NCBI RefSeq assembly: GCF_029626035.1
Contig: NZ_JARUBE010000003.1
Coordinates: forward strand, 4,774,001 to 4,838,000
Direction of reading: 5' to 3'
Source of the DNA: Micromonospora sp. WMMD980
GTDB taxonomy: Bacteria > Actinomycetota > Actinomycetes > Mycobacteriales > Micromonosporaceae
Length of the DNA: 64,000 nucleotides
Position numbers and translations under genes: made by a program. Below are positions 11,002 through 20,623 of this stretch, piece by piece; positions within the stretch are counted from its first letter, which is position 1; each line of letters begins with the position of its first letter. The notes under the pieces are model-generated. The model had not been told where the DNA came from. It made no database searches and was given only the letters and a program-made list of their open reading frames with translations.

Positions 11002-11682
11002 TCAGGGGCGGTAGCGGTAGCCCATGCCCGGCTCGGTGATCAGGTGCCGGGGTCGGGCCGGGTCGTCCTTCAGCTTGCGCCGGAGCTGGGCCATGTACTG
11101 CCGGAGGTAGTTGGTCTCCTGCTCGTAGCCCGGCCCCCACACGTCGAGCAGCAGTTGCCGCTGGCTGACCAGCTTGCCGGGATTGCGCAGCAGCTTCTCC
11201 AGCATGGCCCACTGGGTGGGGGTGAGCTTGACCTCCGTGCCGTCGTCCCGGGTGACGCTCCGGTCGGACAGGTCGACGCTGTGCCGGCCGACCCGCAGCG
11301 CCGGGACGGTCGGCGTGGTCGGGGCCAGCCGGCGGGTCACCGCGCGGATCCGGGCGAGCAGTTCGTCCACCCCGAACGGCTTGGTCACGTAGTCGTCGGC
11401 GCCGGCGTCCAGCGCGGCGACCTTGTCCTCGCTGCCGGCCCGGCCGGAGAGCACGATGATCGGCACGGCGGTCCAACCGCGCAACCCGCGAATCACCTCG
11501 GTGCCGTCCAGGTCGGGCAGCCCGAGGTCGAGCACCACCAGGTCCGGCGGGTGGCCGGCGGCGGCCTTCAGCGCGGCCGCGCCGCTGTCGGCGACCTCGA
11601 CCTCGTATCCACGGGCCCGCAGGTTGATCCGCAGGGCGCGCAGGATCTGCGGCTCGTCGTCCACGACCAGGACGCGGGTCAT
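11002..11682 (-). CDS. kdpE: KdpE-like response regulator
   Basis: A 226-residue OmpR-type regulator. The receiver domain (1-118) has VLVVDDEPQ, phosphoacceptor Asp in [10 protein letters not shown] and Lys in [17 protein letters not shown]. The winged-helix DNA-binding domain (about 130-226) has [19 protein letters not shown] and the KdpE-typical ending [13 protein letters not shown]. It overlaps the upstream kdpD-derived frame by ATGA. KdpE normally activates kdpFABC under potassium limitation. Here the transporter genes are lost, so it is either orphaned or serves other promoters. Confidence 0.93.
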
Positions 11683-13618
11683 CGCTGCGGTCCTCCCGAC
11701 TCGGTGGCGGCGGGCAGCCGCAGCACCATGGTGAGCCCGCCACCGGGCGTGGTCTCCGGGGTGATGCTGCCACCCATCGCCTCGGCCAGCCCCCGCGACA
11801 GCGCCAGCCCGAGCCCCACCCCGGTCTGGTTGTCCCGGTCGCCGAGGCGCTGGAACGGCAGGAACACGTGTTCCCACTGGTCCTCCGGGATGCCCGGACC
11901 GGTGTCGATCGCCCGCAGCTCGACCTGGCCGGCGTGCGCGCTGCCGGTGATCGTCGGCGGCCGGCCGGGTGGGCTGTGCCGCAGCGCGTTGGCGACGATG
12001 TTCACCAGCACCCGCTCCAGCAGGCCGGGGTCGGCCAGCGCGGCCGGCAGGTCCGGCGCGATGTCCGTGGTGACCTCCGCCGCCGCGGCGCCCAGTTCGT
12101 CCAGGGCCCGGGGTACGGCGTCCTCCAGCCCGATCGCGGTCGCGGTGACGCCCAGCGCGCCGGCCTGCAACCGGCTCATGTCCAGCAGGTTCGCCACCAG
12201 CCGGCCCAGCCGGTCGAGCGACTCGTCGGCGGTGGCCAGCAGCTCCTCGGAGTCGTCGGCGTCGAACTCGACGTCGTGGCTGCGCAGGCTGCTCACCGCG
12301 GCCTTGGCCGAGGCCAGCGGCGTCCGCAGGTCGTGGCTGACGGCGGCGAGCAGCGCGGTCCGCATCCGGTCGGCGGCGGCGAGCGGACGGGCGGTGGCGG
12401 CCTCCTCGGCCAGCCGCTCCTGGCGCAGTGCGACGGCGGCCTGGGCGGCGAACGCCTCGACCACCCGGCGGTCGGCGGCCTCCAACCGCCGGCCGGCGAG
12501 CACCACGCTGAGCCGGTCGTCGACCGGCACCACCGTCTCGCCCGCGCTCGGGCTGCCGGGCGGCCGGTCGCCGACGCTGGCGACCACCCGCCAGGCGGCC
12601 TCCTCGGCGGACCGGCCCGGCCGCCGCTCCGCCTCGGCGGCCAACTCCAGCACGCTCACCGCGCGCACCCCGAACGTCTCCCGCAGCCGGTCCAGCAGGG
12701 CGGGCAGGGGACACGCCCCGCGCAGCACGCTGCCCGCGACGGTGGCCAGGGTCTGCGCGTCGGCGGACGCCCGCGCCGCCTCCCGGGTACGCCGGGCCGC
12801 CACGTCGACCACTCCGCTCACCGCGACCGCGACGCCGACGAACACGCCGGCGCCGACGCCGCCCGGCGCGACCTCGCCGAGCATCATGTTGCCGAGCGTC
12901 ATCATTCCGCCCAGCGCGGTGTACGAGTCGTGGAACGAGTTGACCGCGCCGGTCGAGGTGAGCGTGGTGGCCGCCGCGAAGGTGGCCGAGTTCGACACGT
13001 CGAAGCGCACCTCCTTGCCCTCCATCGCCGCGCCGACGGCCTGCGGCACCGTGCCGTGCCCGGTCAGCTCGAAGACGTTGGTCAGGGTGATGCTGGCGAG
13101 CGCCAGGATCGCCATCACCGCGGCGATCGCGTGGCCCTGCCGGGTCTGCCCGACCATCCGGCCGAAGACCACGGCCACCGCGACGGCGATACCGACCGCG
13201 GCGGAGACGAAGTTCTGCACCGCCAGGCCGGCCATCTGCACCAGGTGACCCATTGTCGACTCACCCGAGTACCACTGCCAGTTCGTGTTGGTCGTGAACG
13301 ACACGGCCGTGTTCCACGCGCCGTGCGGCACCACCGGGTCGAAGCCCAGCGAGAGCCACAGGTGGTTCTGCAGGCGCTGGAACGCGTAGAGGAAGAGGAC
13401 GGAGACAGCCGAGAAGGCGAGCACGCTGCGGACGTAGACGCCCCAGGTCTGCTCGGCGGCCGGGTTGACCCCGACCAGGCGGTAGATCCCCCGTTCGACA
13501 GGGAGGACCGGGTGCCGGAGACCGCCCGGTACATGTGGTCGCCGAACGGCCGGTGCACCGCGACCAGCGCCACCACCAGGGACAACACGAACAGCACGCC
13601 GGCTGTGGTCATGCTCAT
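11679..13618 (-). pseudogene. kdpA-kdpD chimera with internal deletions and a frameshift
   Basis: The start ATG (13616-13618) begins a true KdpA N-terminus ([20 protein letters not shown]). A one-base frameshift near 13500-13525 moves to the frame [19 protein letters not shown]. From GTG 13424 that frame runs 581 residues. Residues 1-86 are KdpA helices; about 87-193 are a later KdpA part ([33 protein letters not shown]), with the intervening stretch lost, including the GTNGGGFF filter. From about 194 onward it is KdpD: its last transmembrane helix, a GAF-like region, [11 protein letters not shown] with His364, [11 protein letters not shown] and DTGPGIP. The rest of kdpA, all of kdpB and kdpC and the KdpD N-terminus are missing. 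Both deletion joints are in frame. Confidence 0.85.
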
Positions 13619-13707
13619 CAGAAGCGCTCCGGGAACAGCAGGGCGACGACCAGAAACACGCCCAGCCCGATCGCCAGCACCAGGCCGACGGCGTTGACGG
13701 CGCTCAC
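13618..13707 (-). CDS. kdpF: KdpF, small subunit of the K+-transporting ATPase
   Basis: A 29-residue single-helix peptide, [20 protein letters not shown] followed by a VALLFPERF end, the typical KdpF ending. In intact operons KdpF stabilises the KdpABC complex in the membrane. The GTG start overlaps the upstream small gene by GTGA and its TGA overlaps the kdpA ATG by one base, so the operon architecture is preserved although its partners are lost. It is too short to be found by ordinary length filters. Confidence 0.85.
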
Positions 13708-13787
13708 AGCTTCTCCACACCCCTCACCACGAGGGCGAGAGCCGCGAACAGCCCCACCGTCAGCAACACGAACAGCACGTCAGACAC
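13704..13787 (-). CDS. 27-residue membrane peptide leading the kdp operon
   Basis: GTG 13785-13787, with GGAGAG upstream, opens a single-helix peptide (VLFVLLTVGLFAALALVVRG, then VEKL). It overlaps kdpF by four bases. Similar tiny ORFs ending in a basic VEKL/VERL tail precede kdpF in other actinomycetes, as far as I recall. Function unknown; an accessory peptide of the Kdp pump or of its assembly is a reasonable guess. Confidence 0.6.
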   Translation of the reverse strand: MSDVLFVLLTVGLFAALALVVRGVEKL

Positions 13788-13923
13788 GGCTGGTCTCTCC
13801 TAGCGGAAGATGTCCTCGCGACCGCCTGCCGGCCGCGCCGGGCAATCAAAACGCCAGGTCGCGCGAACGGACAGGGGCTATAACGCGACCATCACGCCGG
13901 GCGGCGGTTTCTTCACGCGCCTT

Positions 13924-15081
13924 TCACGCCGGCCGGTCGAGCGGCCCGAACGCGCTGCGCACCAACCGGTTCGCCTCGTCCTGGTCGACGTCGGTGGCGA
14001 CCAGGAGGTCGCTGGCCGTGGTGCGTACCTGGGCCACCACCACCGCGCCGGAGAAGTCCACCCCGGCCCGGTAGGCGCGGCCGGCCTCGGCGACCGCCCG
14101 CAGCGCGGACTCCCGGCACCGGGTCGGTTCCGCCGCGCCACGGGCGAACTCCTTGCGCAGCTTCCGGGCCGCCTCGGCCAACGCGGAGACCGCGGCCGGC
14201 ATGGCGTCCGGCACCCGCTCGCCGTCGGCGAGCAGGGTGACCGCACGCCGGATCAGCGTGCCGCTGTTGCGCATGGCCCGGTCCACCGGCTCCACGGACT
14301 TGGCGTACCGGCCGAGCGGCCCCTCCCGGGCGCTCCAGTAGACCGGCGACAGCGTGGCGGCCTCCCGGGCACCCTGCGCCGCCTCGCCGAAGGAGCCCAT
14401 CTCCGCCTTGTTGTCCCGCAGCCGGTCACGGGCGACGCGGGCCTTCTCCGCGTCCCGCTCGCGCAGCGCCTCGGCGGCGCTGTCCAACTGGTCGGCGAGA
14501 AGGTCGAGCGCCGGGCCGGCCGCCCGGTTGATGATCCGCAGCGGGTTCAGCGGCAGCAGCACGGCGGTGACCAGCAGCGTGGCACCGCCGCCGATCAGCG
14601 CGTCGACCACCCGGGGCACCTCGAGGTTCGGCACGGACGGCGTCAACGTGCCGATCAGCACGGCTGTCGCGCCGGCCTGCACCACCAGCGCCGGGCTCCG
14701 GCCGACGAACGCCGCCACCACCACGGCGAACGCCACGATGACGCCGAGCTGCCACGCGCCGACCCCGACCAGACGGATCAGCAGGTCACCGATCAGGATG
14801 CCGACGGCGACCCCGATCACCAGCTCGATGGTACGGCGCAGGCGTTGGCCGACCGACGCGGCGAGCGCCACCACCGCCGAGATCGGGGCGAAGACCGGTT
14901 GGGCGATGTGCAGCAGCGAGTCCGCGACCCACCAGGAGAGGCCGGCGGCGAGCCCGGCCTGTGCCGCCAGCCCGGCGCCCGCGCGTACCCGACGGAACCG
15001 GTCGGCCGCCAGCGCCGGCACGGCACGCAGTCGGCCGGCGAGCGCCTGTCCGCCCCGCCCGCCCGTCTCCGCACCGGCCAC
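13924..15081 (-). CDS. FUSC family (aromatic acid exporter-like) membrane protein
   Basis: A 385-residue protein with an N-terminal block of about six transmembrane helices (roughly 35-190), including FAPISAVVALAASVGQRLRRT, typical of the FUSC/ArAE domain, and a long cytoplasmic helical C-terminus (about 200-385). Relatives export small aromatic acids, but the substrate here is unknown. GTG 15079-15081 is the first start preceding the conserved region. The kdp remnant lies upstream in coordinates on the same strand, separated by 136 bases with no further gene seen. Confidence 0.85.
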   Translation of the reverse strand: MAGAETGGRGGQALAGRLRAVPALAADRFRRVRAGAGLAAQAGLAAGLSWWVADSLLHIAQPVFAPISAVVALAASVGQRLRRTIELVIGVAVGILIGDLLIRLVGVGAWQLGVIVAFAVVVAAFVGRSPALVVQAGATAVLIGTLTPSVPNLEVPRVVDALIGGGATLLVTAVLLPLNPLRIINRAAGPALDLLADQLDSAAEALRERDAEKARVARDRLRDNKAEMGSFGEAAQGAREAATLSPVYWSAREGPLGRYAKSVEPVDRAMRNSGTLIRRAVTLLADGERVPDAMPAAVSALAEAARKLRKEFARGAAEPTRCRESALRAVAEAGRAYRAGVDFSGAVVVAQVRTTASDLLVATDVDQDEANRLVRSAFGPLDRPA

Positions 15082-19518: not shown

Positions 19519-20453
19519 TCAGGCCGGCGGCAGCGACACGGTGAAGGTGGCGCCGCGCCCCGGCGAGCCGGTCACCTCCACGGTCCCCCGGTGTGCCGAC
19601 GCCACGTGCTGCACCAGGGCGAGCCCGAGACCGAACCGCCGGCCGTCCACCCCAGCTCCACCTGCCGCTCCGCGGCGTACGCGGACATGCTCGCCACCAC
19701 CTCGCGGGCCACCTCGGCCAGGTCCACCTCGGTGTCCGGCAGCGGCTGGTGCTCGGCGGCGGCCGACACCAGCAGGTCCTCGACCACCTCGCCGAGCGCC
19801 CGGGTGTCCGCCACGAGCTGGTCGAGCTGCCCGGCCAGCCGCTCCGCCGGCCGGTCCCGGGCGCGCCGGGCCAGCAGCTGCGCCCGGGTGTGCAGCACGG
19901 TCAGCGGGGCCCGCAGCTCGTGCGAGGCGTCCGCCACGAACCGGCGCTGCATGCCCAGCGCGGTGGCCAGCGGGGCGACCGCCCGCCGGGCCAGCAGCGT
20001 GGCCGTGACCAGCGCGCCGGCCAGCCCGGCCAGCTCGGCGACCAGCAGCGCGAGACCGAGCTGCCCCTGTCGTCGACGCAGCGGGGCCAGGTCGGCGGCG
20101 ACCGCCCAGCGGGTGCCGTCCGGCCGGCGCTCCGTCGCCACCCGGACCGGCCGGTCGTCGCCGGCCGTCGCGTCGAGACGGCCGGGCGTGCCCCGTACCG
20201 CCCGGCCGAGCACCCGGGTCAGCTCCGGCGACGCGCCCGGGGTCACCTCGACCGCCTGGTCGCCGGGGCGCTGCCGGGCCAGGAACTGCCGGGGCGGCGG
20301 GTCGTCCACGTCCTCGGCGGCGGCCAGCACCCGGCTCAGCTCGCCGTCCAGCGCCCGCGACTCCTGCCGGCTGGTCAACACGTACATCAGCGCGCCGACC
20401 AGCAGCAGCACCAGCCCGATGGCGCCGGCCGACCACCATGACCTGGTAGTCAC
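19519..20453 (-). pseudogene. Sensor histidine kinase, C-terminal catalytic part deleted and frameshifted
   Basis: From about 20435 the frame reads a transmembrane helix ([17 protein letters not shown]), an extracytoplasmic sensor region, a second helix ([20 protein letters not shown]), a HAMP-like linker and the dimerisation box [20 protein letters not shown] with the phospho-His. After QVELGW near 19650 the frame is lost. The next kinase sequence, [14 protein letters not shown] followed by [12 protein letters not shown] and the end FTVSLPPA, lies in another frame. The N and G1 ATP-binding boxes are missing. The true start is also lost, because the 5' end is fused to the response-regulator fragment. 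Confidence 0.85.
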
Positions 20454-20592
20454 GGGTCAACGCCCGGTGCAGACCGAGGTGCCCGTCGCCGGCCACCTCG
20501 ACCTCGTACCCCTCGTCGGCGAGCAGGTCGGCGAGCACACCGGAGAGGGCCCGGTCGTCCTCGACCAGCAGCAGGCGGGGGTGGCTCTCCAC
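20431..20592 (-). pseudogene. Response regulator fragment fused to the kinase remnant
   Basis: GTG 20590-20592 opens [20 protein letters not shown] and continues to DYQVMVV, the first 54 residues of an OmpR-type receiver with its acidic DD pair. The sequence stops exactly where the phosphoacceptor Asp should follow (about 20431). Receiver remainder and DNA-binding domain are missing, and the DNA runs straight into the kinase N-terminus. One deletion has therefore removed most of the regulator and the kinase start. Confidence 0.85.
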
Positions 20593-20623
20593 CGGCCCAG
20601 TATCTATCCACCGACGCGGCGGC

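Follow-up and report, generated by a model that had tools for sequence, protein, structure and literature searches.

A continuous KdpA-KdpD reading frame in Micromonospora sp. WMMD980, probably the remnant of a recently decayed kdpFABCDE operon

When the gene for a potassium pump subunit reads in one frame into the gene for a sensor kinase, is the locus a broken operon or the origin of a new kinase? This question is raised by the kdp locus of the soil bacterium Micromonospora sp. WMMD980, which lies within the 64,000-nucleotide stretch of DNA analysed here (the window). An earlier note on this DNA had described a continuous 581-codon KdpA-KdpD frame, and such a frame is indeed present: on the minus strand, positions 13424–11679 form a single open frame that runs from a GTG at 13424 to a stop at 11679 and encodes 581 amino acids, with the frame open from stop to stop from 13703. 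It consists of two KdpA pieces followed by the C-terminal kinase of KdpD; Pfam reports two stretches of KdpA along with HisKA and HATPase_c. The frame ends in a stop that overlaps the kdpE start, and kdpE, directly downstream, is intact (11682–11002, minus strand). Pfam searches place a CorA protein downstream of the kdp remnant, and a FUSC-type protein upstream. The locus contains the following features:

13618–13707, minus strand: kdpF-like small open reading frame (29 aa), the stop of which overlaps the kdpA start (read from the sequence; the same stretch aligns in M. humi)
13504–13618, minus strand: 5' piece of kdpA ahead of a one-base slip, with a frame that continues to the TGA at 13117–13115 (frame reading and the relatives' alignment)
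13167–13503, minus strand: kdpA piece 1, read in the chimera frame and covering repeat D1 (helix, pore loop, helix) (PF03814 positions 33–147; E. coli KdpA 102–153; hydropathy)
13167–13170, no strand: joint 1, where 351 bp of kdpA are gone, with a 4-bp overlap, GGTC (alignment to relatives)
12847–13166, minus strand: kdpA piece 2, from repeat D3, with its first helix and its pore loop (PF03814 positions 260–378; E. coli KdpA about 269–377)
12846–12853, no strand: joint 2, a kdpA-to-kdpD loss of 5068 bp (versus M. humi) or 5057 bp (versus a second relative, G108)
11679–12845, minus strand: 3' piece of kdpD, encoding the last membrane helix, an arginine-rich linker, HisKA and HATPase_c (M. humi KdpD 460–847; Pfam)
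11002–11682, minus strand: kdpE, an intact response regulator of 226 aa (Response_reg and Trans_reg_C in Pfam, where it is given as 11002–11676; frame read)

The first of these we take to be kdpF, from its position. Just 5' of it lies another small, hydrophobic open reading frame (27 aa; 13704–13787, minus strand), which is retained in M. humi except for the stop region. The kinase part of the chimera carries the H, N and G boxes. An Rfam search of 13400–14200 gave no matches up to an E-value of 0.1, and a consensus scan of 11600–14100 gave no promoter-like sites and one terminator-like site (mean of 0.7 in shuffled sequences). Two alignments of the chimera with KdpA and KdpD fragments were discarded: identities fell far short of what the same fragments gave when aligned by themselves, and the KdpA pieces were misplaced.

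The closest relative, M. humi, and G108 both carry an intact kdpFABCDE between the same neighbours. Compared with M. humi, the window shows (i) a 351-bp deletion inside kdpA, (ii) a deletion of ~5.06 kb that begins in kdpA and ends in kdpD, and (iii) the loss of one base. Alignment to relatives bears out the in-frame joints that had been reported near 13166 and 12845, placing them at 13167–13170 and 12846–12853. The one-base slip, reported near 13510, is placed near 13503 (CCC-TG), close to kdpA codon 38; the base is present in 17 of the 17 relatives aligned there. A sequencing error is possible, although the site falls outside any homopolymer run. Since this base is missing, the kdpA start at 13618 is out of the chimera frame. 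Translation from that start ends at the TGA at 13117–13115, which overlaps a chimera-frame ATG at 13115; re-initiation at this ATG is conceivable, and would give a 478-codon product. By eye, no Shine-Dalgarno-like stretch is visible before the internal starts of the chimera frame.

How much of the pump and of the sensor remains? In a profile search, the KdpA profile PF03814 covers only positions 33–147 and 260–378 of 548 in the chimera. PMC6255902 describes KdpA as a ten-helix protein whose filter is formed by four helix-pore-helix repeats; the chimera does not have this ten-helix, four-repeat architecture. The filter had been described as lost, but against that layout the loss is partial: of the four pore-loop repeats, D2 and D4 are gone, D1 is kept and D3 is kept in its first half, with the last KdpD helix occupying the place of KdpA D3M2. 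Joint 1 takes out one helix-pore-helix repeat, and joint 2 swaps the next KdpA helix for the last KdpD helix; both joints look topologically sensible as well as in frame. The topology reading rests on assumed helix directions.

On the KdpD side, the reported loss of the N-terminus is confirmed, with residues 1–459 of the M. humi protein having no counterpart in the chimera. In Pfam searches of the chimera frame, neither the KdpD domain (PF02702) nor the four-helix DUF4118 domain gave a match; only the last KdpD helix is retained. The chimera thus resembles a KdpD sensor kinase in its last membrane helix, its linker, its HisKA and HATPase_c core and the kdpE directly downstream, but differs from one in the absence of the KdpD and Usp domains and of three of the four helices, and in the KdpA pieces in front. 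Truncated forms of E. coli KdpD react to K+ limitation yet cannot repress at higher K+ (PMC2714519), and the KdpD N-terminal domain—missing in the chimera—is described in PMC11018627 as a serine kinase that inhibits KdpB.

The host assembly, four contigs totalling 6.83 Mb, has a completeness score of 99.99%, and the window lies within a 6.78-Mb contig. The losses of kdpB and kdpC reported from the window extend to the whole genome: profile searches found no KdpC and no KdpB above the family cut-off (five weaker, sub-cutoff P-type ATPase matches only), and the only KdpA matches are the two chimera pieces. A kdpFABC elsewhere in the genome, which the earlier note had considered, was not found. 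The KdpD sensor domain gave a single sub-cutoff match genome-wide; Kup was not found genome-wide, and TrkH has two matches. With the pump gone and two TrkH matches present, host K+ uptake probably relies on a Trk-type system.

Loss of KdpA is common in the genus, with KdpA present in 119 of 160 Micromonospora genomes and absent in 41. Besides the window, kdpA is broken (truncated or split) in G053, G089 and G121, and in a second copy in G084; these resemble the window in their broken kdpA, but no fusion to kdpD was seen in them. In G053 (L226, 2680–3992), an independent decay, kdpA stops after the first D3 helix and is joined directly to a kdpE fragment. In G121 (L230), exactly 55 bp are missing in kdpA and also in kdpD, a pairing that looks like an assembly artefact. 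G095 (L225, 5019–10551) keeps complete KdpD and KdpE although its genome has no KdpA, and the two adjoin a K_trans (Kup family) gene; KdpDE has possibly been rewired there to another potassium transporter. Among the matches listed for the other 159 Micromonospora genomes, where a row spanning the whole query would be expected to rank high, no such row was found, and a protein search gave no second copy of the fusion in the best 120 of 7999 matches. A separate KdpA-KdpD fusion of 779 aa, with a different joint, was found in Nonomuraea sp. NPDC049400 (P0113). Like the chimera, it joins an N-terminal part of KdpA in frame to KdpD through loss of the intervening stretch; unlike the chimera, it keeps about 215 KdpA residues together with the last part of the Usp-like region and a whole DUF4118, and uses the normal kdpA start. 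P0113 is a singleton: a search made with it listed 120 proteins, none of the others with KdpA. In the literature, the titles and opening lines of the abstracts listed gave no natural KdpA-KdpD fusion.

Deletions of this kind are not confined to kdp. A 400-kb stretch of the host (contig C3, 4762001–5162000) was compared with M. humi and G108. The host shows 25 deletions of at least 60 bp versus M. humi, 18 of which are also seen versus G108 at the same place; for three of the 18 (27126, 283051 and 299892, host coordinates) the sizes clearly differ between the two references. The corresponding counts of deletions supported by both other genomes are 4 of 14 for M. humi and 3 of 15 for G108. Pairwise identities among the three genomes are so similar (94.1, 93.0 and 93.3%) that branch lengths do not account for the host excess, which may stem from a genuinely deletion-prone lineage or from the way the genome was assembled. 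The host deletions are often clustered, with islands of about 125–345 bases between them. Under 17 of the 18 lie 16 open reading frames, three of them kdp. Pfam searches of ten of the deletion-hit frames gave a kinase, a regulator, a TetR protein, a hydrolase, a pectate lyase, a CBM96 phosphoesterase, a PLP enzyme, an AraC protein, an MDMPI_N protein and one without a family; another frame, outside these ten, also has no family. We judge the named genes, from their families, to be accessory. Genes that are intact in both other genomes but missing number 15 of 172 in the host, 2 of 149 in M. humi and 3 of 155 in G108; of the host's 15, five fall in one cluster and three, sited at the edges of the 400-kb stretch, may be edge effects. 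The host has 20 partial or split genes, many of them cosmetic only. Within the window, a second two-component pair (19531–20607), which in M. humi comprises a HisKA/HATPase_c kinase and an OmpR-type regulator, is broken by two deletions (229 and 553 bp), each of which loses the frame. The frame can be followed across five joints inside genes: the two kdp joints are in frame, and three (229, 553 and 395 bp) are out. Two in-frame joints are a 1-in-9 chance event, for which selection is not needed.

Sequence change in the retained pieces bears on when the locus was damaged. Changes found only in the window number 6 nonsynonymous and 18 synonymous across the three retained pieces, against an expectation without constraint of 2.24:1 (P = 1e-5). 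The corresponding nonsynonymous:synonymous counts for the neighbours are 6:8 in kdpE, 0:8 in corA and 12:13 in the FUSC gene. The 6:18 pattern indicates that the pieces were constrained for most of the branch rather than in long neutral decay, and hence that the loss is recent, that the kinase part is used, or that the gene is really whole; we take recent loss as the simplest of these. At positions invariant in 57 to 60 relatives, the window alone carries, for example, R42C in the KdpD piece (57 of 57 relatives have R) and E205K in KdpE (60 of 60 have E). The window is not unusual in this test: among the KdpD rows, 22 of 56 have as many such changes, and among the KdpE rows 12 of 59, the window counted in both.

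Of the two possibilities raised by the earlier note, it is the broken operon that fits these observations: pump genes were not found elsewhere, the operon is intact in relatives at the same place, and similar deletions lie in nearby genes. We therefore consider, with a probability of roughly 80%, that the locus is a recently decayed kdpFABCDE remnant whose joints are in frame by chance; its orthologues at this place are intact and it is disrupted, which is the appearance of a decayed operon. Under this reading, (i) a 351-bp deletion would have removed KdpA repeat D2, (ii) a ~5.06-kb deletion would have run from KdpA D3 to the last KdpD membrane helix, and (iii) together with the one-base loss these would have eliminated both the pump and the sensor of KdpD. 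The leftover ends would read as one frame by chance, with the upstream stretch and kdpE carried along. Were translation to begin at an internal start, or to re-initiate at the 13115 ATG, the resulting protein would be a KdpD kinase stripped of its N-terminal regulatory domains; it would probably be deregulated, and the pump known as its target is gone. We infer that decay rather than selection lies behind the frame, that the deletions are real, and that they arose by end joining; a Ku protein is encoded by the host.

The principal alternative is that the full operon is present in the genome, and that parts of it were skipped in assembly by joining at short overlaps. Both joints do show short overlaps, many deletions are crowded into the host lineage, some leaving the small islands described above, the retained pieces still look constrained, and similar artefacts seem to occur in the genus (the 55-bp gaps of G121). 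This reading is nevertheless unlikely: the window sits in the 6.78-Mb contig of a nearly complete four-contig genome, the deletion sizes are irregular, and random loss should strike housekeeping genes too, whereas the named genes hit look accessory. Real deletion is more likely than assembly collapse. More improbable still is that the fusion is translated into a working membrane kinase, with two pump pore-loop segments as its input and the last KdpD helix replacing D3M2, that signals to KdpE. The kept H, N and G boxes, the sensible topology of both joints (a repeat removed at the one, a KdpD helix exchanged for a KdpA helix at the other), the constraint on the retained pieces, and the overlap between the out-of-frame TGA and the in-frame ATG at 13115 are consistent with such a kinase, as are the KdpDE pair of G095, kept without KdpA beside a K_trans gene, and the response of truncated E. 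coli KdpD to K+ limitation (PMC2714519). Against these stand the out-of-frame normal kdpA start, the lack of visible Shine-Dalgarno-like stretches, the changes at otherwise invariant positions (such as R42C and E205K), the loss of the target pump, and the fact that, among the matches listed, no relative carries a homologue of the fusion. With the in-frame joints open to chance, nothing found here speaks directly for the new sensor kinase that had been proposed.

Read as a decayed operon, the locus is ordinary. It would nonetheless offer a clean snapshot of an operon made into a topologically plausible transporter-kinase fusion by two deletions, in a lineage where deletions are apparently in excess. 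Should the fusion work, it would mean that a sensor can gain a new input in nearly a single step, and the Nonomuraea fusion would represent a second pump-subunit kinase, independently born by deletion.
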